From Candidatus Gastranaerophilales bacterium (GTDB lineage Bacteria; Cyanobacteriota; Vampirovibrionia; Gastranaerophilales; Gastranaerophilaceae): 39,429 nt of DNA. Position 1 is the first letter of the stretch. Every line of letters starts with the position of its first letter. The notes below the pieces were generated by a model. The model was not told where the DNA came from, ran no database searches, and saw only the letters and a program-made list of their open reading frames with translations. Made by a program: the position numbers and the translations under genes. This document shows positions 5,399 to 38,524 of the stretch, piece after piece. Where the stretch lies: the NCBI GenBank assembly GCA_944323265.1, contig CALURX010000001.1:1-39429 (forward strand). The letters are read 5' to 3'.

Positions 5399-6745
5399 AT
5401 GGACGGAGTTAATCAGGAATACCTGGATAGTCTTAAAAGCAGGGTTAAAGATAAAATTGAAAATGTTGACTTATACCAGTTCAAGGGAAGCGTATCAAAG
5501 CTTGTCGGGCTGACTGTTGAGGTTAAACTTCCCGGGCTTAAGATTGGTGATTTGTGCTATATTGAAGCTGCTAACGGAGAAAAAAAGCCTGCAGAAGTTG
5601 TTGCTTTCAAAGGCGATGCAGCACAATTACTGCTTTTATATGATGGGGCAGGAATCGGTCAGGGCAGTCTGGTAACTACAACCGGAAAACCTATTATTAT
5701 TCCAGTTGGGGATTTTCTTCTTGGAAGATTGATTAACCCAATGGGTGATCCTATTGACGGCAAGCCAATGAATACGGAAGGCGCCTTATGGCGTCCGGTA
5801 GAAGGCCCGCCACCTGGACCTTTCGAAAGACCGATTATTACGGAAATGTTCTCTACAGGTGTGCGGGCAATAGATTCCTGTTTAACTTTTGGCTGCGGAC
5901 AGCGTATGGGCTTATTTGCCGGATCAGGTGTTGGTAAAAGTACCCTTCTGGGTATGATTGCAAGAAATTCAGATGCTGATGTTAACGTAGTTGCACTAAT
6001 AGGAGAACGCGGCAGAGAGGTTAAGGAATTTGTAGAGGACGCATTAGGCCCTGAGGGTATGAAAAAATCTGTTCTTGTATGTTCAACAGGGGACCAGCCG
6101 CCTTTAATCAGACAAAAATGCCTTTTGACCGCAACTGCAGTTTGTGAGTATTTCAGAGATCAGGGCAAAAAAGTTTTCTTAATGACAGATACTGTAACCA
6201 GATGCGCTATGGCAGGGCGTGAAGTAGGCTTGTCAATTGGAGAGCCACCTACAATGAAAGGGTATCCGCCTTCAATATTTTCTTGGCTTCAAAAAGCTCT
6301 GGAGCGTGCAGGTAATAGCCCCAAAGGTTCCATTACCGCATTTTATACAGTCTTGATGGAAGGTGATGATATTAATGACCCGATTGTTGATACAGTGCGC
6401 GGTATTACTGATGGTCACATTTTCCTTTCAAGAAAAGTCGCAGAAGCAAATCATTACCCTGCAATTGATATTTTGGGAAGTATTTCAAGGCTTATGTCTG
6501 CGATAGCCTCTCCTGAGCATAAGGAAGCGGCCGCAAAGCTTAGAAAAATTATGGCAATGTATAGAGAAAATAAGGATTTGATTGATGTTGGTATGTATCA
6601 GCCGGGAACAAATCCAAAGCTGGACATTGCAATTGAGATGATGCCCCAGATTAATGCGTTTTTGCAGCAGAGAACAACTGACAGTGTTAGTATGCAAAAC
6701 ACTATTGATACACTGATTAATATGATGTCGGGTGTTGATATATAA
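5399..6745 (+). CDS. fliI: FliI/YscN-type flagellar or type III export ATPase
   Basis: 448 residues, the usual length for FliI. Seen: Walker A A-G-S-G-V-G-K-S-T (174-182) preceded by MGLFAG, then LIGERGREVKEFVEDALG, YFRDQGKKVFLMTDTVTR and GEPPTMKGYPPSIFSWLQKALERAG, all in the FliI order. FliI hydrolyses ATP at the base of the flagellar or type III secretion gate to release chaperones and unfold export substrates. Differences from common FliI include IRQKCLLTATAV in place of the usual LRxxxAxxAT segment and DTVTRCAM in place of DSLTRFAM. No other flagellar or type III gene lies in the window. The start has no ribosome site and an extended -10 lies 6 nt upstream. A V/F-type ATPase is unlikely given the GxPPTxKGYPPS signature. 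Confidence 0.87.
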   Translation: MDGVNQEYLDSLKSRVKDKIENVDLYQFKGSVSKLVGLTVEVKLPGLKIGDLCYIEAANGEKKPAEVVAFKGDAAQLLLLYDGAGIGQGSLVTTTGKPIIIPVGDFLLGRLINPMGDPIDGKPMNTEGALWRPVEGPPPGPFERPIITEMFSTGVRAIDSCLTFGCGQRMGLFAGSGVGKSTLLGMIARNSDADVNVVALIGERGREVKEFVEDALGPEGMKKSVLVCSTGDQPPLIRQKCLLTATAVCEYFRDQGKKVFLMTDTVTRCAMAGREVGLSIGEPPTMKGYPPSIFSWLQKALERAGNSPKGSITAFYTVLMEGDDINDPIVDTVRGITDGHIFLSRKVAEANHYPAIDILGSISRLMSAIASPEHKEAAAKLRKIMAMYRENKDLIDVGMYQPGTNPKLDIAIEMMPQINAFLQQRTTDSVSMQNTIDTLINMMSGVDI

Positions 6746-6899: not shown

Positions 6900-9800
6900 G
6901 TGTTTATTAATAAAATTAACGGTGTATCAAATTTAGGGTTCAAAGGATATCAGCACGTAAAAAATGACGTGGGTGAGGATATTTACAGATTTAATTATCC
7001 TTATGACTATGCAAAGGAAGACTGCGAAGTCCAGATATTCAGGGCTGTTCCTAATGAAAAACTAAACTATACAATCTCCGAAACACCGATTGCAACTATC
7101 AAATTAGAGCCTCAAGGTGTTAATGTCAACCTGCAGGATATTACTAACCTTGATAAGGATGCACCTTTTGCATACAAAATTGTAAGAAGAAACAAAGCTG
7201 ACGGAAGCATTATCTGGGAAGGTCCTGATACAGGTATGAATATGAAAGCCGGAAAAAACGGAGATTATGTTTTCAGGACAAATGTTGATAAGGGCGGCGA
7301 TGCTGATTTTGAGGATCGTATTGCCGGCTATAAATATTCTTTGGTAGCAAGACGCGGAACAACACCACGAGTTCAGGGAGCCGGATATCTTGTTATGCCT
7401 GACGGACTAAAGCCCGGCGTTATGTATAGAGGGTTTACTGACAGCAATACCGGCGAGATTTATTATGACAAAGATTACCAGAAAAAAATGGAAGGTGTTA
7501 TAAAGACTTTTGCAAACAAGCTCGGCGGTAATATTGCAGGCATGCAGTCTATGATTCCGTATTTAAAACAAAACGGATATACCTACATGTTTTCTACTCC
7601 GATAGCAAATGGCGATAATGTTTCATCTCACAGATATTGGAACAAAAACAATATGCAGATAGCTCCGGATATGGGCAATACCGAAAACTTTGCTTCATTT
7701 ATGAGAGATTTGTATTCTAATGGTATGAAGTATGTTTATGACGGTACTTTTACGTCAGAAGGGTTGGAAGGTGTTCACTTCCAATACGCTTTGAGGTGGG
7801 CAGAAAAGAATCCGCAGACATATTACTGGTTTAGAATGTCAAGTATAAAAGATACAAACCTCGGATTCGGAACTGTTCCTAAAAATAAAGAAAATTTAAG
7901 ACACAGGGTAATAAATGCTCCTTATATTTATACACAAAACGATAGCGGAAAGATTGAAAAGAAGGCAAACCCAAACTATGATTCTAACAAAGAAACATTG
8001 TTCCAGATTTATGATGCTTCTCAGGTAGATAGCGAACAGATTAAGGATTTGGATAATGCCATTAATACGTACAAGAACTTAAAATCCGGCAAAGAGCTTG
8101 ATATCGTAACTCACGACGATACTCTTGTTAACTATATCTGCCAGATTGACCCGAAAGAATACCAAAAACGAGTTGATGTTATTAATGATTTGAACAAGAC
8201 ATACGGAAAGAATATCCAGCTTGATTCTGCGGACGGAACTATTCTTGTATCACAGTTTTCAAACTTTAAGATTGATAAGAAAACTGAAGGCGGTTTTGTT
8301 GCCTGGGATGCTAACACTGATATGGTAAAAATGAATTATCATATCTCAGGCTATGACGAAAAGATTAATCAAGCAATCGTAGATAGAACAAAACGTGACC
8401 TTGAAAAGCAAATGATTGAACGCGGAACTTATGAAGTTCAGGATTTGGCAATACAATCAGGTAAATATTGGACCGGCAAAGTAAAAAATATTCAGACCCT
8501 TTATACAGCACAAACTGTCGGCAAGGCCAAAACTGTTGACGGTATTAATAAGCTTATTGATGAAGGAAAGCTCCCACAAAATGCTAATATAACAGAGCCG
8601 GTATTAAATAATATTTTGAATGGTCAATACCTTCTGGAGCCAAAAGGTATACTTGATAAGGACTCAGTTACTGTAAAATCCTTAATGAGCCTTCCTCTTG
8701 ATACTTTAGAATTTGGCGAAAACACTGTTGGAGTTTTATCAACATCTTATTTCTCAAATAGAGCAACAAGCGAAGACACTATCGGGATTTCAAGATTTGA
8801 TTTGATGAAACAGAATAATCCTCATCTTGTTGAACCTTACGCAAAAACTTACAATAGAGTAAACGGTCTTTATAACAATGAATTGAAGGACTTTGCCGAT
8901 TCTATTATCAAGAAAGTTAATGACAAATCTGACGAAAAACTCCTTGATGTAAATGGAGATTATACGGAATACGGTGAATATGTAATGGAGCTTGTAGGAC
9001 AGGATATTGCAAAATATGCTTTATTAAAATCTCTTAGCGGTAAAGCTTTTAATTCCAAGATTCTTGATAATGGCGAAATTACTTATGATTATGAGAGTAT
9101 AAGGAATGCGACATCACTTAAAGCTATAGGCATTAAAGCTTACAATCCGGATGATGAAGCATTACAGCTGGAAAAGAAAATAGAAAAAGGGCTTAAATCA
9201 TTATCAGACAGTGATATTACTTATGTAGCAGACTCTATCAACAAGAGAATTGCAGGAACAGATACAATGAGCTTTAGAATTGCAGAAGCTGCAGTTGACA
9301 GAGCTTCTCTCGGGTTAGACTGGAGACTTGATGCAGCAAAAGACGTTATTGACATGGATTCTGTAAGAAACAATGATACTGATTTTGATGATGCTTGGAA
9401 TCAGGCTATTGCTTTCTGGTCAAAATTTGTACAGGCTGTAAAGAGTGAAAACCCGAATTCATACATCGTTGCAGAACTTACTGATATTCCGGACTTATTA
9501 CGCGCTCATACCGGTGCAGAATCCTGCCCGTATAGAGATCAGACAAATATCGGTCAGCGTTATAACGGTGAACCTGATGCTATGGCTAAATTCTTTAATG
9601 AAACAGGTATAACAACAGAGGCAGGGTATTCATACTTCTTTACGAATTTGTTAACTTCATTTGCACCGGCGTTTGACGACGGAACGAGTATTTCTGAAAC
9701 TCATGATGGATTCAAGCAAAGACTGGATCTATTAATGCAGACACGCAGTGCAGATTATATAAGAAACCTCTGGACGTTTATGGATAACCATGATAAGCCG

Positions 9801-11684
9801 AGAATGATTCATGGGCTTGCACTCGATATGGGATTATTCCATTCATCATTAAAACATGGATATAAAAACGGACATGCGGAATTTGAGGGCAACCGCAGCT
9901 ACAGACAAGACATGATGAGAGCACTTACCGGTGCAAGGACAAATACAGAACTTCCGCTTGAATTGAGATTGAATATCGATAATAACGAATATTTCAGAAC
10001 AACAAGCTCTCGAGCTGCAGCAATGACAAATGTTCTTATGGCAGCTGTTTATGAAGATTTAAATGGTATTGCAAGCGAAGAAGATAAAAAACGTTTAATT
10101 GATGCTCTTGTTGATCTTACAAACGGAAATTATTTAGGCGAAGGTCAGACATTGAGTCCTGCGGTTATTAATGTACCGGAGCTTTCAAGCCTTGAAAATG
10201 CTTTTGAAGCATTATTAAAAACTGCTGAAAACTCTTATGGGCTAAAATTATCAGAAGCTGAACGTAAGCAGATTTTTGATAACGTTATTAAGATCGCTAA
10301 TTCTGATGATATGATGAACAATTATCTGGTTCATGGTGGTTTTGACTGGGCAGGCCCTAATGAAGATATTGGAAAAGCAAACAGAGAAAGGGCTGATAGA
10401 ATTTTAGGATCCGTTTCTGATTACAGTCAATACAGCCTGTATACAGTTAATCTTGCATCACTGCTCTTGGATTCTTATACAAAGACCGGCAAAAATCCTG
10501 CAGCTAAAGAAGCTTTAACCAAAGCGGCAAAAGAATTTGTAGAAAAATATGACAGAGACTATGTTCAAAGAAACTCTTCAGAGCTTCCGAAGATTGAAGA
10601 CCCCAAAACAGGCATGAGAAAATTAGGCTATTCTGCAAGAGATATTAAAGTTGCAATGTCAATGGCAATAAAACAGGCTGAATACAAATCCGGCAAGCCT
10701 ATTGCAAATAAAGAAGCTATTGTTGATACAGTATTCAAATCCGTAACAGAGCCGGCTGTAAAAAAAGCCGCAATGATTACGGAATATCTGAAAGGGCTTC
10801 CGGGTGTTCCAACAAACTATGCAGGTGATGAGCTTGGTATGAGCGGTTATGAAGAAAAAGCAAAGAACGTATATCTCCAAAACAGAAATGCTCTTCCCTG
10901 GACAGATGTTGAAAGTGACAGTGATATTGGAAAATACAGAAAATCAATAATGGCATCAATCAATGGTGCTTTGAAAGACAGAAGCAACCCTGAATTACAC
11001 GCGCTTAACGATGGTACACCTTATGCGATGGACGTTACAATAGGCGGCAGGAACAGAGATGCCTTATATCAAAGATTTTATGAGGTTAAAGGCGCGTTAG
11101 AGAAAGACCCACAAAACGAAGCTTTGCAGAACGAAAAGCGTCAGTTAACGCAGGCACTTGCAAAAGTTGCTTATATGATGCAGAGCGCAAACGGTGATAT
11201 GACAGTTACCTTGTTCAATGCAGGCGGAATTGATCATAAAAATAGAGTTGACTATTTCGCAAAATATGGCTTAGATACCGATGCAAAACGCAAAAAATTC
11301 TTTGCCGATAACGATATTGAATCAATAAATCCGAATAACAAATATGTACCGATTCAGCCGAAATCAGAAGTTGATTATCTCCTTCTTGGCGCAGGAGTTG
11401 CAGTTCCTGTTGGAACAGTGTTTACAAATGCTAATGTTAGAGATAAAGCAAAATATGTAGTTAAGGAAATTAACGGACAGCTGGGTATATTCAAAGAAGG
11501 CGGAAAAATTGTTCTAAGCGATTTAACAGCCAAAAACGGAGTTATGATATTGAAACATATCAAAAATATTGCCTTTAAAGGCCATAGAACATACTATAAC
11601 CCGCAATATAACTTTGTATCAAATCCATACAAAAAGCAAGAAGTACAGGAAGAAGGAAAGAGATTATCTATTATATCAAAATAG
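6900..11684 (+). CDS. giant GH13 (alpha-amylase family) enzyme with N-terminal LGFKG tag
   Basis: 1594 residues, far above the usual 450-700 of the family. GTG start at 6900 with AGAAGGAG about 9 nt upstream. No signal peptide; it begins MFINKINGVSNLGFKGYQ. The GH13 conserved regions are present in order: region I D281-GTFTSEG, region II W808-R-L-D811-AAK (nucleophile D811), region III A-E859-L (acid/base), region IV F-M-D-N963-H-D965, and the late-barrel strand Y1307-AGDELGM. So the catalytic triad is complete and retaining hydrolysis or transfer on alpha-glucans is expected. Spacing is abnormal: about 530 residues separate regions I and II and about 340 separate IV and the last strand, so large domains are inserted in the barrel. 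A second FKG motif sits near the C-terminus (1559-1561). The AAA+ gene follows after 15 nt. Confidence 0.85.
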   Translation: MFINKINGVSNLGFKGYQHVKNDVGEDIYRFNYPYDYAKEDCEVQIFRAVPNEKLNYTISETPIATIKLEPQGVNVNLQDITNLDKDAPFAYKIVRRNKADGSIIWEGPDTGMNMKAGKNGDYVFRTNVDKGGDADFEDRIAGYKYSLVARRGTTPRVQGAGYLVMPDGLKPGVMYRGFTDSNTGEIYYDKDYQKKMEGVIKTFANKLGGNIAGMQSMIPYLKQNGYTYMFSTPIANGDNVSSHRYWNKNNMQIAPDMGNTENFASFMRDLYSNGMKYVYDGTFTSEGLEGVHFQYALRWAEKNPQTYYWFRMSSIKDTNLGFGTVPKNKENLRHRVINAPYIYTQNDSGKIEKKANPNYDSNKETLFQIYDASQVDSEQIKDLDNAINTYKNLKSGKELDIVTHDDTLVNYICQIDPKEYQKRVDVINDLNKTYGKNIQLDSADGTILVSQFSNFKIDKKTEGGFVAWDANTDMVKMNYHISGYDEKINQAIVDRTKRDLEKQMIERGTYEVQDLAIQSGKYWTGKVKNIQTLYTAQTVGKAKTVDGINKLIDEGKLPQNANITEPVLNNILNGQYLLEPKGILDKDSVTVKSLMSLPLDTLEFGENTVGVLSTSYFSNRATSEDTIGISRFDLMKQNNPHLVEPYAKTYNRVNGLYNNELKDFADSIIKKVNDKSDEKLLDVNGDYTEYGEYVMELVGQDIAKYALLKSLSGKAFNSKILDNGEITYDYESIRNATSLKAIGIKAYNPDDEALQLEKKIEKGLKSLSDSDITYVADSINKRIAGTDTMSFRIAEAAVDRASLGLDWRLDAAKDVIDMDSVRNNDTDFDDAWNQAIAFWSKFVQAVKSENPNSYIVAELTDIPDLLRAHTGAESCPYRDQTNIGQRYNGEPDAMAKFFNETGITTEAGYSYFFTNLLTSFAPAFDDGTSISETHDGFKQRLDLLMQTRSADYIRNLWTFMDNHDKPRMIHGLALDMGLFHSSLKHGYKNGHAEFEGNRSYRQDMMRALTGARTNTELPLELRLNIDNNEYFRTTSSRAAAMTNVLMAAVYEDLNGIASEEDKKRLIDALVDLTNGNYLGEGQTLSPAVINVPELSSLENAFEALLKTAENSYGLKLSEAERKQIFDNVIKIANSDDMMNNYLVHGGFDWAGPNEDIGKANRERADRILGSVSDYSQYSLYTVNLASLLLDSYTKTGKNPAAKEALTKAAKEFVEKYDRDYVQRNSSELPKIEDPKTGMRKLGYSARDIKVAMSMAIKQAEYKSGKPIANKEAIVDTVFKSVTEPAVKKAAMITEYLKGLPGVPTNYAGDELGMSGYEEKAKNVYLQNRNALPWTDVESDSDIGKYRKSIMASINGALKDRSNPELHALNDGTPYAMDVTIGGRNRDALYQRFYEVKGALEKDPQNEALQNEKRQLTQALAKVAYMMQSANGDMTVTLFNAGGIDHKNRVDYFAKYGLDTDAKRKKFFADNDIESINPNNKYVPIQPKSEVDYLLLGAGVAVPVGTVFTNANVRDKAKYVVKEINGQLGIFKEGGKIVLSDLTAKNGVMILKHIKNIAFKGHRTYYNPQYNFVSNPYKKQEVQEEGKRLSIISK

Positions 11685-11699
11685 ATAGTTGAGGATATT

Positions 11700-13184
11700 A
11701 TGAGAATTACACCCATAAGTGCAGGCATGGTATACCGGACGCCTGCACAAAGGCAGGAAGTAAATAGCAAAAATGTAAGAAATTGTACAGAGATTCCAAG
11801 TTTTTACGGACTTTGGGGAGATAAAAAACCTACTTTGTCAGATAAATTCAGATATGGCTTAGAGGCTTTAGATGACAACTCTATGCTGATAGTTACATCT
11901 GATGATAAAGTTTCAAATTTTATGCTCAATAAAGCTCTAGAAAATATAGATATACCCATTATAAAAACTTATACTCTTAAAGTCGGCGAAGGTGATTTGA
12001 TAAACCGAAACAAACTGGAGGCTAATTTCGGAATTTTTAAGAAAAACAATGATTATTACGTAATTAACTTGTCTGAATGGATTTACCGGCTTGAGGTAAG
12101 AAATCCTGATGAATCTCTAAACGCAAACCGGCATTTTATAAAATCAGGCGAGACAAAAAAACTGACGCAGGGAGAGTTTATCGGAACAGGAGAACTTTAC
12201 TCGTATATTCACGATAAGCATAAATTTATGTTTAATCCGCCATATAGTTATAACCCTGCAAATGCAGAAAGATATCTTGAAGTAAAAAGTGCTGTTTCGA
12301 CCGCTGAGGGACTACAAAAATTTAATAGACAGACAATCTCGGCTCTTACTGCTGGCGAGAAAAGAGTTACAAAACGGAAAGAGTTTACATTCCAAGATAT
12401 AGGCGGGTTAGGAAATGTTATTGAAAATCTTAGAAAATCTATAATAAGACCGATTAATTACCCGATGGTATATCAAAATATAAGGTTAAATAAGGGAATT
12501 ATGCTATATGGCCCGCCAAGATGCGGTAAGACACTTCTTGGGAAAGCTATCGCAAATGAAGCAAATGCCGAATTTCGATATGTAAATGCCAATGAGTTTA
12601 AAAGCTCAGAAGTCGGCGGCTCAGAAAAAAGTGTCAGGAATATTTTCCAAACAGCAGAAGATAAAGCCCCATATATTCTGTTTATAGATGAATTTGATGC
12701 AATCGGTAAAAAACGTGACGGAAGCTCTAATGCAAGATTTGACGACAGCGTAGTCAATCAGTTTTTGGGCTGCATGAGTGATTTAGAAAAAAGTAATGCT
12801 ATGGCTTTTGTAATAGCAGCAACAAACAGACTTGATTTGATTGATCCTGCGCTTCTGGCTTCCGGCAGGTTCGGGCTGCATTTGGAAGTACCTATGCCGG
12901 ATTTAGAAGGGTTAAAAGAAATTTACGATATACACTCTAAGGGGCAGCCGATAGGTAATGATGTTTCAAGAGATGAGCTTGCTCAAATTATGCTTGATAA
13001 TAAATTTAACGGCTCAGATGTTGCAGAAATGGTTACACTTGGGTATTATAACGCGCTTGAACGCTTAGGGATTAACGAAAAAATGGACAATAAAACATTT
13101 ATGCTAAGCGACCTTGAAAAAATTAAAATCGCAAAAGAGGACTTTCTGCAGGCAATTTCCAAGCTTGCTAAACAGAAGCTTTAA
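11700..13184 (+). CDS. AAA+ ATPase (FtsH/Cdc48-like module) with unknown N-terminal domain
   Basis: 494 residues. Residues 1-225 match nothing I recognise; 226-494 form an AAA+ module opening FTFQDIGGLGNVIENLRKSI. Walker A is G271-P-P-R-C-G-K-T278, where the usual GPPGTGKT has R-C at the G-T positions; Walker B is FIDEFDAIG (D330-E331); sensor 1 is ATNR (N376); then DPALLASGRFG. The common arginine in LLRPGRF is missing, leaving one arginine for the finger. Such modules remodel or unfold proteins as hexamers; no protease domain is present. GAGG lies upstream of the ATG, 15 nt after the giant GH13 gene, so the pair is co-transcribed. The N-terminus (MRITPIS) resembles the tag start without the NFK part. 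The 3' end overlaps the convergent gene by 17 nt. Confidence 0.85.
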   Translation: MRITPISAGMVYRTPAQRQEVNSKNVRNCTEIPSFYGLWGDKKPTLSDKFRYGLEALDDNSMLIVTSDDKVSNFMLNKALENIDIPIIKTYTLKVGEGDLINRNKLEANFGIFKKNNDYYVINLSEWIYRLEVRNPDESLNANRHFIKSGETKKLTQGEFIGTGELYSYIHDKHKFMFNPPYSYNPANAERYLEVKSAVSTAEGLQKFNRQTISALTAGEKRVTKRKEFTFQDIGGLGNVIENLRKSIIRPINYPMVYQNIRLNKGIMLYGPPRCGKTLLGKAIANEANAEFRYVNANEFKSSEVGGSEKSVRNIFQTAEDKAPYILFIDEFDAIGKKRDGSSNARFDDSVVNQFLGCMSDLEKSNAMAFVIAATNRLDLIDPALLASGRFGLHLEVPMPDLEGLKEIYDIHSKGQPIGNDVSRDELAQIMLDNKFNGSDVAEMVTLGYYNALERLGINEKMDNKTFMLSDLEKIKIAKEDFLQAISKLAKQKL

Positions 13185-20664: not shown

Positions 20665-20690
20665 AAAAAAGGACTTTATAGTCCTTTTTT
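20665..20690 (+). terminator. intrinsic terminator after ferritin
   Basis: AAAAAAGGACT, loop TTAT, AGTCCTTTTTT: an 11-bp stem with T-run, starting 2 nt after the ferritin stop codon. It separates the stress pair from the tagged operon that follows. Confidence 0.92.
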
Positions 20691-20777
20691 CTTGTTTTTT
20701 ATTTTTGTTTTTGGTAAATTAAATTGTGTGTGGAGTATTTTTTTATTTTGTAAAAAAATGTAAAATTCATGCTTAAA

Positions 20778-20836: not shown

Positions 20837-21916
20837 ATGATTAAAGCAGTAAGAATAACAGATAGTAATACAAGTTTTGGCGCGAAGTCCGAATCAAAAA
20901 AAGAAGAGGATAACGAATCCAAAATATTGCCAAATACTTTAAGAACGCGAATTGCACAAAAAATTGATAAAACACAAAGTGCGTTCACTGAATATCCCAT
21001 AAAAGGGTTTCGAGGTGATGTTAATTCCGACTTTTATGAATTTTTATCAATGGGAATTGTGCCATATCTGGCAGGAAGTGCAATGTTTATGGCAATGTTC
21101 AATCTGGTTACCAAACATCTTAATCTAAAATCGCAGAAGCTAGCAGTAAATGGTAAAAAAATGGCGCTGGGCGTTATACTTTACGGTTTATTCAAAACAT
21201 TGTCAGCAGATCTGGTAACCCGTCCTGTATACTGGGGAACCGGAGTTGATATCGAACTACCTTATACAAATGTTTATTATCCGCTTCCAACACAGCCCGG
21301 TAAAGATGCTAATATTTATCCTTTAAGGCAGCAAAGAAAAGTTTATGACAGCAGAGAGTTCTTTAGAAAAGACTTAATCCAAAATGATCCGGACTATGGG
21401 GTTAAATATTACGATAAGATTGCAAAGAAAATAGGTTTAGGAGATGACTTAAATGATTCTGTTACAGAGACAACCCCAATAATCCAAAGTATAATTTCAA
21501 CAACCAAGACAGCAAAATCGCTTTCAACTTATGCTTGGGCTGGTGTTGGTGTTGGTCTTGCGGCTCAAAATTCCTGGACAGACTTATTTGATGCAATATC
21601 AAACAGAAAACGTCATATTGCAAAACCCGGAGAAGGCTTCTTTACTAAAATTGGAGCTAGACTAAAGAATGCAGGCACTAATTTTGTTGATATCTCCAAA
21701 ACATTTGGAAAATCATTTGTAAAAGCATTTAAAACATTATGGACCGGAGAAAAAGGAACTTCAGGCTTTATGAAACATGCTGGAAAAGCTTGGATGCTTC
21801 TGACAGCGGCTCTTACTATTGGAAGTACAGCAAATGTTATATATAAGGCAAGACATATGGGTAAATTAGCCAATAAAGACATTATAGATGACAATAAAGA
21901 AAGTACGGTGATTTAG
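20837..21916 (+). CDS. multi-pass membrane protein of unknown function with N-terminal SFGAK tag
   Basis: 359 residues and no family I recognise. It opens MIKAVRITDSNTSFGAKSES; the SFGAK at 13-17 resembles the NFKA/NFKG tags of other proteins here. A charged linker follows, then hydrophobic segments at about 73-92, 108-125, 228-246 and 318-340, so it is probably an integral membrane protein without a cleavable signal. Between the second and third segments lies a soluble part rich in Tyr and Pro (for example NVYYPLPTQPGKDANIYPL). Start ATG at 20837 with TGGGG as a poor ribosome site. It is the first gene of a three-gene unit ending with a GH13 enzyme, and the next gene starts 1 nt after its stop. 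Confidence 0.75.
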   Translation: MIKAVRITDSNTSFGAKSESKKEEDNESKILPNTLRTRIAQKIDKTQSAFTEYPIKGFRGDVNSDFYEFLSMGIVPYLAGSAMFMAMFNLVTKHLNLKSQKLAVNGKKMALGVILYGLFKTLSADLVTRPVYWGTGVDIELPYTNVYYPLPTQPGKDANIYPLRQQRKVYDSREFFRKDLIQNDPDYGVKYYDKIAKKIGLGDDLNDSVTETTPIIQSIISTTKTAKSLSTYAWAGVGVGLAAQNSWTDLFDAISNRKRHIAKPGEGFFTKIGARLKNAGTNFVDISKTFGKSFVKAFKTLWTGEKGTSGFMKHAGKAWMLLTAALTIGSTANVIYKARHMGKLANKDIIDDNKESTVI

Positions 21917-21917
21917 T

Positions 21918-24551
21918 ATGACATCAATTAATCCGATACAGACAAATATAGATAATACTAAGTCTCATAAGCCTCATAGACCTTATAGAGAGGCTGAAGG
22001 CCGTATTCAGACACAAAATAATGCCAAGCCGCTTCCGGGACAAGGGCATCTGGTACACGATTCTTTAATTACTATCCCTAAATATTTCTTAAAAGATATC
22101 GCGTACGACATAAAAGCAGTTAAGGATGGATTCAAAGGCACTGCTAATGATCACCAGTCAGGACGTCTCAACGATGTAGGTCTTAAGCTTGGCGGTATCG
22201 GAATTGCAACAATGCTGGCTGCAAGAACAACAAACCCGATGGCAAGAGTTATGGAATATGCGGGGCTTGGAGCTTTTCTGGCTTCTATGTCATTGTATCC
22301 TTTGATTGCAATAAATACTCCTTCAAGATTATATCAAGGTTTTAATATCGGAAAAGAATATATTGACGATCAAGGCCGTAAAAAATCCGTATTACAGGAT
22401 CCGAATTATATTCCGTTTGATCTCTATAGAGGAGAATATCCTGGTGAAGATTTGGATATTATCGGTGACAGGTTAGGAGTTCCAAGAGGTATTCAGGATC
22501 GCCATGATGTTATCAAAGAACAGATGAGAAAGATTGGTATCCAGAATAATACATTATGGATGATGACTGCTGGTGTCGTTCCTGTTATGACAGCTTTGAT
22601 TTGCTGCGGATTGGAAAAAATCATAGGACCTTGGATTGAAAAGGCAAGAAATTCAAATTACAATTCTAAGATTACAAAGGCTCTTGAAAGAACCAACAAT
22701 ATGAATATTTCCGCAGGAGAAATCGGAAATACTACTCTGAGCAAAAATGTAGCAAGAATACTTACGAATTACAAAAATCAGGAACTTCCAAAATCTGAGT
22801 TTGATAATCTTGTAAAAATGTTTACTAAAAATCTCGATGCAAATACTGCAGAAGGTGTAAAACAAGATTTGGCAAATATATTGCAGATGGAAAAACGCGG
22901 CGTCAAATCATTTGTTACAGATGAAAAAACTGCCGAAACTCTTATTAATACAATAAGAACCAGTTTGCCAAATACTAATAAAGCAACTTTAGAAAAAGTA
23001 TTCATCCCGACACAGGATGAAATAAATAGTATTCTTAAGAAATTTGAATCAAAAGAGTTAACATCAGAAGAACTCTTGAAGTTTAAATCAGAACTTAAAT
23101 CTCTTTTTGATGAAAAAATCGCAAAAGAAGCGGCAGTTTCTAAAGAATCTTTAAATGGGTTTAAAAACAGAATTATTGAAAATATTTCAAAATCAATACA
23201 GAAAACCCCTTCAAATTATGTATCTGAAGCTAATATAAAAGAAATCACCGATTTTGCTAAAATTCTTAGTGTATTTAAAGAAAACGATAAGATTTTAGAT
23301 AAATGTAAATCCTTCAAGTTTGAGCACGCTCCGGAAACGGTTATTGCGCGTTCTTACAGTGCTCAATTTGAAAAGACGCTGCTTGATGTTCTTGGTGTAA
23401 AATACAAGGAGCTTAAATTACTGAGAAACTCTGAGCAGGCAGTGCAAGAAATGCTTGACAAGAAGCTTACAGAGCTGGCGTCAAATCCGGCTAAGTATGA
23501 AGAAGCTGTTTCTAAGCTCGGAAAGATTATGTCAGAGATGGAAATCAAGCTTAGCGGCAAATCTGCAAGCAAATCTCACATTGTTGATTTAATAACCGCA
23601 ATAGAGAATAATTACAACAATACTGCTAAACTTCTGAATGAAACCGGTAAGGGCAAATTCTCAAATACAATCGGAAAACTTGTAAAAGAAGACGTTTCAA
23701 CTCTTTCAAATTCAGTAAGTACAAGACAGGAATTGTTTGATATACTGGATGGTGTTAAAGAAAATAAATTTGCGGATATTGCAAGTAAATACTGGTCCCC
23801 AGAATTTGGAGAAGCCGGAAGAATTGAATACGCAAAAGAAAATGCAAAAGGTGTAGGTTCTTCTAAAAACTATACAATTTCAAGAATCATCGAAAGATAT
23901 CAAGGTGCAAACAATTCGTTTAACAGAATCTTGCATACGCTTGATTTGTATAACAGAAAAGAGCCGGTATCTGCTTATGATAAAGAAATTCTTCAAAAGG
24001 GTAAAGAGGCAATACTCACTGCAACATCTTCCGATCATACATTGAAGCTTAATACAATAAATAATCCTGACTTCTACAAAGATGTTATGAATACAGTCTG
24101 GGGTGCAGAAGAAGGCGTTGATCCAAAAACAACTAAGGCAAAAGGACGTATTACAGAATCAACAAGGAACGCTCTTAAACGTTATGACAGTAAGGAATCC
24201 GGTAATATAATGACAAGATTCCAGCAGTACATAAACAGATTCAGAAATATAATCGGAAATAACAATATAGACTTTACAAAACCGGAACATCTTGTGGATC
24301 CGGCAGCACTTAGGAATTATACAAAAGAATCTAAGACCAGAATGTCTATGTTCAATTTGGTATCACAAACTCCGGTAGACTTTGTTAAGAATGCCGCAGA
24401 GAGACGATATACAAACCAAAAATGGGCAAGACTTGCCGGTACAATAGGCGGAATAGTCCTTGGCGGAACAATTCTTGCACAGTTAGGATTCGGTAAAATA
24501 AGAAACCCACATACGTTAAAAAAGCAGGTGAGCGATGATGCAAGTAAGTAA
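21918..24551 (+). CDS. large membrane-anchored coiled-coil protein of unknown function
   Basis: 877 residues with no family I can name. The N-terminus (MTSINPIQTN) is tag-like in its Ile spacing but lacks NFK; GFKGTAN appears at 71-77. Hydrophobic segments lie at about 87-103, 114-132, 208-232 and again at the end (about 842-862). The 600 residues between the last two are hydrophilic and helical, rich in Lys, Glu, Asn and Leu, consistent with a long cytoplasmic or surface stalk anchored at both ends. It may act as a scaffold for its neighbour enzyme (inference). The ATG at 21918 follows the previous stop by 1 nt with GGTGA upstream; the 3' end overlaps the GH13 gene by 14 nt. Confidence 0.75.
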   Translation: MTSINPIQTNIDNTKSHKPHRPYREAEGRIQTQNNAKPLPGQGHLVHDSLITIPKYFLKDIAYDIKAVKDGFKGTANDHQSGRLNDVGLKLGGIGIATMLAARTTNPMARVMEYAGLGAFLASMSLYPLIAINTPSRLYQGFNIGKEYIDDQGRKKSVLQDPNYIPFDLYRGEYPGEDLDIIGDRLGVPRGIQDRHDVIKEQMRKIGIQNNTLWMMTAGVVPVMTALICCGLEKIIGPWIEKARNSNYNSKITKALERTNNMNISAGEIGNTTLSKNVARILTNYKNQELPKSEFDNLVKMFTKNLDANTAEGVKQDLANILQMEKRGVKSFVTDEKTAETLINTIRTSLPNTNKATLEKVFIPTQDEINSILKKFESKELTSEELLKFKSELKSLFDEKIAKEAAVSKESLNGFKNRIIENISKSIQKTPSNYVSEANIKEITDFAKILSVFKENDKILDKCKSFKFEHAPETVIARSYSAQFEKTLLDVLGVKYKELKLLRNSEQAVQEMLDKKLTELASNPAKYEEAVSKLGKIMSEMEIKLSGKSASKSHIVDLITAIENNYNNTAKLLNETGKGKFSNTIGKLVKEDVSTLSNSVSTRQELFDILDGVKENKFADIASKYWSPEFGEAGRIEYAKENAKGVGSSKNYTISRIIERYQGANNSFNRILHTLDLYNRKEPVSAYDKEILQKGKEAILTATSSDHTLKLNTINNPDFYKDVMNTVWGAEEGVDPKTTKAKGRITESTRNALKRYDSKESGNIMTRFQQYINRFRNIIGNNNIDFTKPEHLVDPAALRNYTKESKTRMSMFNLVSQTPVDFVKNAAERRYTNQKWARLAGTIGGIVLGGTILAQLGFGKIRNPHTLKKQVSDDASK

Positions 24552-26325
24552 AATCTCAACAGTAAATTTTAAAGCGTCAGATTATCAGGTTACTCGTGAA
24601 AAACCAGAGCAGCCGCAAAATCATCAGGACAATGGCTCTATTGATAAGTATTTGCAAAATATGGCACTTATTAATGCGCCAAAAGTTCATAAAGTTGAGC
24701 TTGCACAAGCTCCTGTAAAACCATATAAAAATAATTTAAGAACAATGATTCGCAATAATGAATCCGTAATGCTTGCAATAGTTCCCAGAACATTTACAGC
24801 TCAAGATTTAAACGGTGATGATATTGTAACTTTAAAGACCGGCGAAAAGAACGGAACTTTTTTAAGTGCCATATCAAGGTTAGATGAATTAAAAGAGGAC
24901 GGTATTAATACAATACACATCCTTCCTATTCACCCGACAGGCAAGAAAAATGCTCAAGGAACCGCAGGGTCTATATATTCTCCTGCAAAATATGTTACGG
25001 ATGATGGGCATTTGGCAATCGATCCTATGATTATTGAAAAAGATGATCCGAGAACTCCTGATGAACAGTTTAAGGCGTTTATAGATGAGTGCCACAAAAG
25101 AAACATTAAAGTAATGTTAGATTTACCGAGCTGCGCTTCTGTGGATATGTTTGAAACAGAACCGGAGTTAATGGCATACGGAAGAAACGGCGAGGAAAAA
25201 ACTCCTCAAGGATGGACTGATATCAGAATGTTTGAGCCCTGGGATGATGAATCAAACAGAACATTAAATCCTAAATTGTTAGAAATGCATAAACAATATG
25301 TAGATGCCTGCATTGATTTGGGGATTGACGGAATCCGCGCCGATGTTGCAAGAGCGAAACCGCCTGAATTTTGGGATATATTGATTAAATATTCTCATCA
25401 AAGAGACCCTGAATTTGGATGGCTTGCTGAAAGCTACACTTATGAGTGTGCTTCTCCTATGATTAATATGCCTTATGACAGACCTGAAGATTTACTAAAA
25501 GCAGGGTTTGATGAATATTACGGTCAGTACCACATTTTTCATGATTGGAAAAATGCCGCAGAATTTAATGATTATGTCAAATTGAACCTTGATTTGTCTC
25601 ACAGACTGCCGGCAGGAAAAAGTGTTATAGGTTCATTCTTAACACACGATGACAGCTCATCAATGATTCATGGCGGAGAAAATTACTGCAAAATGACAAC
25701 AGTTTTGCAGGCTACAATTCCGATGTGCAATCCATACTTTATTGATGGTTTCCAGTCCGGTGATTATTATGATTACAAATACAGAGACAAAGATAATATA
25801 GAGACCTGGACTACAAAACTGGACCCTGTTGAACATAAACAGGTGCCTAAATATGATATGAACGATCACAGATACAGACTTGCCCTGTTTAATCTGTCAA
25901 GAAAACCTGGCGGTGATTCTCCGGATATTGAAAGGGTTATGAAAGGTGTTTTGGAGATGAGACGCAATAATCTGGATGTTCTTGCAGACAGAAACAGCAG
26001 CTTTATTGAGTTAAATAAAAGAGAAGACAAAAACGACCAGATAATAACTTATGCAAGACACAATAACGGAAGAACACTTCTTGTTGTTGCCAATAAAAAT
26101 CCAAACAGAAATGTTACAGGAATTATTGAGATTCCTGGATTAAAAGCTGACCAGAAGCTTGTAAATATGGTTCCGGCTTACGGTGAAACCAGCGAGTTTC
26201 AAGCTGATGCTAACGAACTAAGAGTTAATTTAGCCCCAAATGATGCTTATGTCTTTGAAATTGATACTCCGAATATTGAAAAAGACAGAAAAGGTCATGT
26301 TTATAAACAAAAAGTAAATGATTAG
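24538..26325 (+). CDS. GH13 (alpha-amylase family) enzyme with N-terminal NFKA tag
   Basis: 595 residues from the ATG at 24538; an ATG one codon earlier (24535) is too close to AGGTGA. It begins MQVSKISTVNFKAS, matching the protein at 38210 at residues 1-6 and 10-12. No signal peptide. GH13 region II is G-I-R-A-D269-V-A-R (nucleophile), region III W-L-A-E298-S (acid/base) and region IV F-L-T-H370-D371-D, so the triad is complete. Region I is degenerate (LDLPSCAS, without the usual N-H pair). The C-terminal beta domain (TLLVVANKNPNRNVTGIIEIPG) looks normal. An alpha-glucan hydrolase or transferase acting inside the cell or at a special site is expected; the substrate is unknown. Last gene of the three-gene unit, followed by a terminator. 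Confidence 0.87.
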   Translation: MQVSKISTVNFKASDYQVTREKPEQPQNHQDNGSIDKYLQNMALINAPKVHKVELAQAPVKPYKNNLRTMIRNNESVMLAIVPRTFTAQDLNGDDIVTLKTGEKNGTFLSAISRLDELKEDGINTIHILPIHPTGKKNAQGTAGSIYSPAKYVTDDGHLAIDPMIIEKDDPRTPDEQFKAFIDECHKRNIKVMLDLPSCASVDMFETEPELMAYGRNGEEKTPQGWTDIRMFEPWDDESNRTLNPKLLEMHKQYVDACIDLGIDGIRADVARAKPPEFWDILIKYSHQRDPEFGWLAESYTYECASPMINMPYDRPEDLLKAGFDEYYGQYHIFHDWKNAAEFNDYVKLNLDLSHRLPAGKSVIGSFLTHDDSSSMIHGGENYCKMTTVLQATIPMCNPYFIDGFQSGDYYDYKYRDKDNIETWTTKLDPVEHKQVPKYDMNDHRYRLALFNLSRKPGGDSPDIERVMKGVLEMRRNNLDVLADRNSSFIELNKREDKNDQIITYARHNNGRTLLVVANKNPNRNVTGIIEIPGLKADQKLVNMVPAYGETSEFQADANELRVNLAPNDAYVFEIDTPNIEKDRKGHVYKQKVND

Positions 26326-26346: not shown

Positions 26347-26376
26347 AAAAAAAAGACCGCTTAGGCGGTCTTTTTT
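26347..26376. terminator. bidirectional terminator between the GH13 and acetyltransferase genes
   Basis: Stem GACCGC (26355-26360), loop TTAG, GCGGTC (26365-26370), extended by A6 and T6 on the two sides. It can stop transcription from both converging genes; the right side overlaps the acetyltransferase stop codon. Confidence 0.93.
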
Positions 26377-38209: not shown

Positions 38210-38524
38210 ATGCAAGTATCAAAAATTACATTAACAAATTTTAAAGGCGGTAAATTACCGCAGGCAGTAAAAAGAGCTGCAAAACCGGTTACAGAAGAAG
38301 TTAAACCTGATTTTAACGTATACGCTTATGGCGTGCCAACAGGGGATATGCCTAAGTCAATAATTAAAGCTAAAGAAGCAGCTACTCCTGCCAACTATTA
38401 TCCATATTCAACTCCTATTACGCAAAGCGAAACTACGCTGGTTGATGCTGCAAAAAAAGATACAATTGCCAAAGATAATAAATTTTATGAATATCTTTCG
38501 GCATCTATGCAAATTAAAAAGTAA
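38210..38524 (+). CDS. 104-residue tag-only protein with N-terminal NFKG
   Basis: It starts MQVSKITLTNFKGG, identical at 1-6 and 10-12 to the GH13 protein at 24538 (MQVSKISTVNFKAS). Beyond the tag there is no domain I recognise: a Lys/Pro/Ala/Tyr-rich, low-complexity stretch (PDFNVYAYGVPTGDMPK, ATPANYYPYSTPI) with no signal peptide, membrane segment or cysteine. It may be a structural or adaptor component of whatever the tag addresses (inference). AAAGGAAAAAGACA precedes the ATG. It is a single-gene unit with its own TACTAGCAAA element and a terminator that overlaps its stop codon. Confidence 0.72.
   Translation: MQVSKITLTNFKGGKLPQAVKRAAKPVTEEVKPDFNVYAYGVPTGDMPKSIIKAKEAATPANYYPYSTPITQSETTLVDAAKKDTIAKDNKFYEYLSASMQIKK

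Follow-up and report, generated by a model that had tools for sequence, protein, structure and literature searches.

Two membrane proteins (M and S) and a GH13 enzyme are encoded together in a real, class-wide and unannotated membrane-enzyme unit. The class consists of non-photosynthetic relatives of cyanobacteria from the gut and the environment. We describe it here from a window (the whole stretch of DNA that was analysed) of 39,429 nucleotides, contig CALURX010000001.1 of a Candidatus Gastranaerophilales bacterium (assembly GCA_944323265.1). The unit and its boundaries in the window are as follows.

20665..20700, + strand: terminator-like hairpin and T run between the ferritin gene and M359 (hairpin at 20665-20690, reported by a scanner, a consensus match only)
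20837-21916, + strand: M359, a polytopic membrane protein of 359 aa with no Pfam or NCBIfam family, carrying the leader ...TSFGAK
21918-24551, + strand: S877, 877 aa, a paralogue of M359 in which an inserted large helical domain separates the third hydrophobic helix from the last
24535-26325, + strand: GH13 enzyme, 596 aa, without a signal peptide, carrying the N-terminal leader MQVSKISTVNFKA
26351..26376, + strand: terminator-like hairpin (AGACCGCTTAGGCGGTCTTTTTT) and T run directly 3' of the GH13 gene (hairpin at about 26353-26375, read from the sequence, absent from the scanner's list)

The three open reading frames have the positions and lengths given in the original prediction, including the gap of 1 nt between M359 and S877; its overlap of 14 nt between S877 and GH13 corresponds to a start at the second ATG (24538), and the overlap is 17 nt when counted from the first ATG (24535). 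As terminator-like hairpins are found on both sides, M359, S877 and the GH13 gene look like one transcription unit.

Conservation and distribution of the unit

We searched for the M, S and GH13 families in 57 of 60 selected genomes, using sampled genome stretches, and added 80 named loci, the best among 547 relatives in the GTDB species collection. All of the 99 complete Gastranaerophilales loci in this sample, which includes those best 80 of 547 relatives, have the order M-S-GH13 on a single strand, with median gaps of 1 nt (M-S) and -4 nt (S-GH13), so the tight arrangement is not a matter of chance. The conserved gene neighbourhood across Gastranaerophilales that was anticipated is thus seen in order, strand and spacing, and the outcome that would have spoken against it, three genes lying apart in most relatives, is the reverse of what these 99 loci contain. 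Flanking genes vary between loci while M-S-GH13 stays fixed: of 79 loci with flanking genes, 79, 78 and 77 contain the three families, and 48, largely from one lineage, contain the next commonest neighbour. Other genes seen next to the unit include two that encode very similar proteins of 627-629 residues starting MTSIQNNMSYDFNKDGKVTYDDYEYA, dockerin or EF-hand-like, directly after it in one genome (G038; L096 12564-16483).

M and S are found in an identical set of genomes (49 of the 57), and the presence of GH13 matches this pattern, the exceptions being a fragmentary genome and weak matches to other GH13 genes. According to a class-wide sample of 289 genomes, M occurs in 204 (nearly all of the window's family, plus families f9 and f15); for families f8 and f10-f14, no M was among the matches listed in this sample. 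The M-S-GH13 arrangement recurs in the f9/f15 loci, which are class-level relatives. In Candidatus Caenarcanum (L244 8464-12994, and L105) the order is GH13-M-S, with the genes still adjacent; these two loci are not counted in the 99, as the contig ends within S. The unit is described in no title or abstract that we found in the literature on Gastranaerophilales and Vampirovibrionia.

The membrane pair and the enzyme

Judged by profile-profile comparison (96% probability, E-value 1.1e-9, over ~200 residues; 93% and 3.2e-7, again over ~200 residues, when largely different sequence sets were used), M and S are paralogues that have a membrane module of ~200 residues in common. M359 is multi-pass, as had been proposed, with hydrophobic segments near 69-87, 109-127 and 318-336 (the family average adds a fourth at about 225-243), and S877 does have hydrophobic segments at both ends (near 114-132, 213-231 and 839-857). 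Both proteins therefore have hydrophobic helices early and one at the C-terminal end, and given this common placement and the profile similarity, S is best seen as an M-like protein that carries a large insertion.

The insertion was modelled with AlphaFold in an S homologue (L219, 31% identical to S877; pLDDT 83.7, pTM 0.70; the corresponding values for M359 are 82.9 and 0.78, and both models are confident). There, some 500 residues are predicted to fold into a domain that is mostly helical. The long helical middle described for S877 is thus mostly helical, but in the homologue model it is a folded domain and not one rod. A scaffold role for it, by which the middle would position the enzyme, is not supported in that form, given two observations. 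Class-level relatives that retain the unit have a middle reduced to a few hundred residues or fewer (S has ~500-615 residues in the unfused outgroup copies), so it is not a simple spacer and not what defines the unit; and where S and GH13 are fused (see below), the enzyme is attached to the last hydrophobic helix, not to the middle.

Neither M359 nor S877 matches a Pfam or NCBIfam model above cut-off, and no consistent Pfam match was seen among 73 members of the M family. A PHROGs search of M and S gave nothing usable (a phrog_184 baseplate match with an E-value of 0.003 was judged to be chance), and Foldseek found no match with an E-value of 0.001 or less for the M and S models in the PDB. 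The best VIA Z scores of these models against the PDB are 5.8 and 7.6, within the chance range for helical models; a likeness to phenylalanine ammonia-lyase (Z 7.6 over about 94 residues) was set aside for the same reason. The S model has no clear relative among viral structures. The C-terminal tails of M and S contain 23-32% Lys/Arg, fitting a cytoplasmic C-terminus, yet the loops of M are Lys-rich on both sides and this charge distribution misfits a simple four-helix topology, so the membrane side is not certain.

The third gene encodes a GH13 protein, as predicted, though a divergent one: its match to the Pfam Alpha-amylase family (PF00128) is partial (residues 82-197) and borderline, at 22.3 bits against a curated cut-off of 22.0. 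The best score to NCBIfam equivalogs (GlgE, TreZ, GlgB, pullulanase, amylase) is 32.9 bits against a cut-off of 538.8, and PADLOC returned no defence model for M, S or GH13, only a weak GlgB-like match of GH13 (E-value 0.004). The nearest solved structures are the alpha-amylases 4gkl and 3dhu, the maltosyltransferase 1gju and GlgE (GH13_3), with matches that cover mainly residues 100-360 at low score. The enzyme has the TIM-barrel motifs and the catalytic Asp, Glu and His-Asp of the superfamily, and differs from known members in its conserved N-terminal leader, its C-terminal extension and its membrane-protein partners or fusion.

The nucleophile D270 (in G-x-R-x-D), the acid/base E299 and H371-D372 of region IV are invariant in 40 homologues, and the catalytic residues are kept in all compared outgroup copies but one (L298, with TPYD in place of THDD, a copy that may be inactive). 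The enzyme is thus likely to be catalytically active. Region I is altered: the N-H of D-x-x-x-N-H, whose His belongs to the -1 subsite, is replaced by S-C (the His becoming Cys200), and by S-A/V/I in the fusions. This His is not strictly required for membership of GH13, and its loss could mean a weak or unusual activity. The unit's GH13 has no signal peptide; a paralogue elsewhere in the genome has one (L126 10651-12180, G000:C55; 44% identical, Sec signal peptide, region I also D-L-P-S-C). This paralogue usually adjoins a conserved gene for 333-337 residues that resembles tryptophanyl-tRNA synthetase.

Fusions, companion protein and leader

In three loci (L295, L297 and L299), S and GH13 form a single open frame without stops, of 986, 1030 and 1082 residues, respectively. 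The three come from different genera among the class-level relatives, and one of the genomes is a single contig. Each fused protein retains the membrane module at its N-terminal end, a middle of reduced length and the final hydrophobic helix, directly followed by the GH13 domain. One genome (G081) has both a fusion and a separate copy. Gene fusions are standard evidence for two proteins acting together, so these instances indicate that S and GH13 do so, with the enzyme placed next to the membrane, and they are our best evidence for a physical complex. That M, S and GH13 form one membrane-bound complex is well supported. The original prediction derived a complex from tight coupling, and one that puts the enzyme at a membrane is the best reading of a conserved unit with S-GH13 fusions in three genera.

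A second GH13-type protein is encoded upstream in the window.

6900-11684, + strand: B, a GH13-type protein of 1594 aa, with D811, E859 and H963-D964 assigned by motif and the leader GVSNLGFKG

B varies from 1103 to 1648 residues across genomes and adjoins M-S-GH13 in many of them, including five outgroup loci. M, S, GH13 and B are all missing (weak matches to other GH13 genes aside) in seven genomes (G034, G040, G042, G045, G050, G051 and G056). Congeners of two of these, G045 (99% complete) and G050, hold all four, so the set was jointly lost more than once. In G015 no B was found, and G036 and G052 have only weak or partial matches; the link of B to the unit, to which it would belong as a second GH13-type protein, is thus strong but not perfect. 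Directly 5' of the B gene lies a divergent FliI/SctN-type export ATPase (window 5399-6745), and the two are adjacent in several species of the genus (L308, L309) and near each other in L310, L312 and L320; since this neighbour is found in only part of the genus, we discarded it as a link to type-III export. Window 11700-13184 encodes a CDC48-like AAA ATPase that weakly resembles the anti-phage ATPase IetA; in relatives, the window's ATPase carries an N-terminal F-[K/Q]-G leader.

M, GH13 and B have an N-terminal F-[K/A/S/R]-[G/A] leader in common, which S lacks. The pattern F-[KASRGT]-[GAS] is found within the first 60 residues of B in 46 of 47 sequences (8.5 expected from shuffling) and within the first 50 residues of M in 60 of 97 (13.4 expected), of GH13 in 34 of 105 (10.4 expected) and of S in 2 of 97 (6.3 expected), counts that come from related, not independent, sequences. 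Over all families, F-[KRQ]-[GAS] is enriched about twofold at N-termini (19 against 9.6 expected), and the leader appears convincing only inside particular families. Several families have GlgA-like synthases with a leader of this kind in front, and a form M-[K/R/Q/F]-[I/V]-x-x-[I/V] ... F-[K/R/Q/S]-[G/A] recurs on unrelated proteins, among them an epimerase, a GlgA-like synthase and an AAA ATPase. Leader-bearing examples are:

window 6900-11684, 24535-26325 and 38210-38524
L137 1911-3747
L310 3873-7550

It is doubtful, though conceivable, that this leader gathers GH13, B, GlgA-like synthases and the epimerase at an M/S membrane platform in Vampirovibrionia.

The unit resembles the canonical glycogen pathway (GlgA, GlgP) in its alpha-glucan enzymes, and in two genomes (G003 and G018) B is adjoined by an epimerase and a large GlgA-like synthase with a similar leader. 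The difference is that the unit occurs independently of canonical GlgA: f7 genomes with the unit, two of which are 99% complete, have no canonical GlgA, and it is found in genomes without the unit. The unit is therefore not simply one for glycogen storage, and the polysaccharide body to which the original prediction would bring the enzyme is hypothetical. We rejected a coupling to glycogen synthesis through canonical GlgA on this presence pattern, and the large GlgA-like synthases remain as candidates. Phosphorylase is found nearly everywhere, making its presence pattern uninformative.

A proposed mechanism and its alternatives

We lean, by a modest degree, towards the following model. M359 and S877 would form a heteromeric inner-membrane anchor that holds GH13 at S877's C-terminal hydrophobic helix, on the cytoplasmic face. 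GH13, with a working catalytic set and a modified -1 subsite, would have an alpha-glucan as its substrate. It would most likely be a transglycosylase or a remodelling enzyme and not a free amylase, and B would work together with it; the short F-x-G leader that M, GH13 and B carry may assist in gathering the enzymes. The conserved unit, the M/S paralogy, the S-GH13 fusions, the joint loss and the catalytic residues are seen in the sequences themselves. We infer the cytoplasmic side from GH13 having no signal peptide and from the Lys/Arg-rich C-terminal tails; the alpha-glucan substrate and the role of the leader are likewise putative.

Among the alternatives, it is unlikely that the complex builds or trims a cell-envelope glycan (a lipid-linked or exported glucan) and not an internal store. 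Membrane anchoring and the uncoupling from canonical GlgA would suit such a function, but no envelope-glycan genes recur among the neighbours in the 79 loci with flanks, and GH13 has no export signal.

Quite unlikely, in our estimate, is that M and S are a transporter or channel for a sugar or other solute, with GH13 as a bound chaperone or regulatory subunit. The precedent is the SLC3 heavy chains of amino-acid transporters (4F2hc, rBAT), in which an extracellular, catalytically dead GH13 domain sits on a single helix; two polytopic paralogues with a GH13 domain that is fused to one of them in outgroups, and whose region I is altered, recall this joining of a GH13 domain to a membrane partner. 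The unit's enzyme, however, keeps its catalytic residues (invariant in the 40 homologues, unlike a purely structural subunit), the C-terminus is predicted to be cytoplasmic, and three to four marginal hydrophobic helices per protein are few for a carrier. No transporter-like fold was seen among the PDB matches either, which is a weak argument.

Mere co-regulation of the M, S and GH13 genes without a complex is very unlikely: tight operons are frequently just co-expressed and regulation alone could keep several conserved genes together, but the S-GH13 fusions in three genera and the joint loss of the set argue against it. Most improbable is export of the leader proteins via a type-III or flagellar apparatus, with M and S as secreted, membrane-inserting translocator-like proteins. 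Type-III translocators of the YopB/YopD type consist of two hydrophobic, helical proteins whose N-termini are disordered, and M and S are also paired, hydrophobic and helical, with disordered N-termini and, in M, a leader; they have no detectable relation to YopB/YopD, the unit's partner is an enzyme, and S is without the common leader (2 of 97). Two distinct full-length FlhA genes were found in 8 of 8 unit-bearing outgroup genomes checked and in nearly all Gastranaerophilales examined, and flagellar gene sets were reported to be incomplete in most Gastranaerophilales genomes then available (PMC4040986), as would fit such export, but two FlhA genes can also occur where the unit is missing (G063), so that FlhA presence does not discriminate; similar leaders are found on an NAD-dependent epimerase, an AAA ATPase and a GlgA-like synthase, all expected to be cytoplasmic, and no effector context was found. 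The FlhA pair lies at G000:C11:16637-18628 and G000:C4:57394-59370 (L143, L301), and most Gastranaerophilales genomes examined also encode a third protein, about 500 residues long, that resembles the C-terminal part of FlhA.

Returning to the membrane-anchored complex, Gastranaerophilales are widespread in the gut and for the most part uncultured, with hardly any of their cell biology known, and an orphan membrane pair with a universally linked and sometimes fused GH13 enzyme offers a testable handle on how they organise their glucan metabolism. A role for the unit would assign two large unannotated protein families together with the companion giant GH13-type protein. If the doubtful role of the leader were true, the leader and the M/S platform would be a previously undescribed bacterial system that places polysaccharide metabolism on the membrane, and an enzyme leader common to several proteins would represent a novel type of sorting signal in bacteria.
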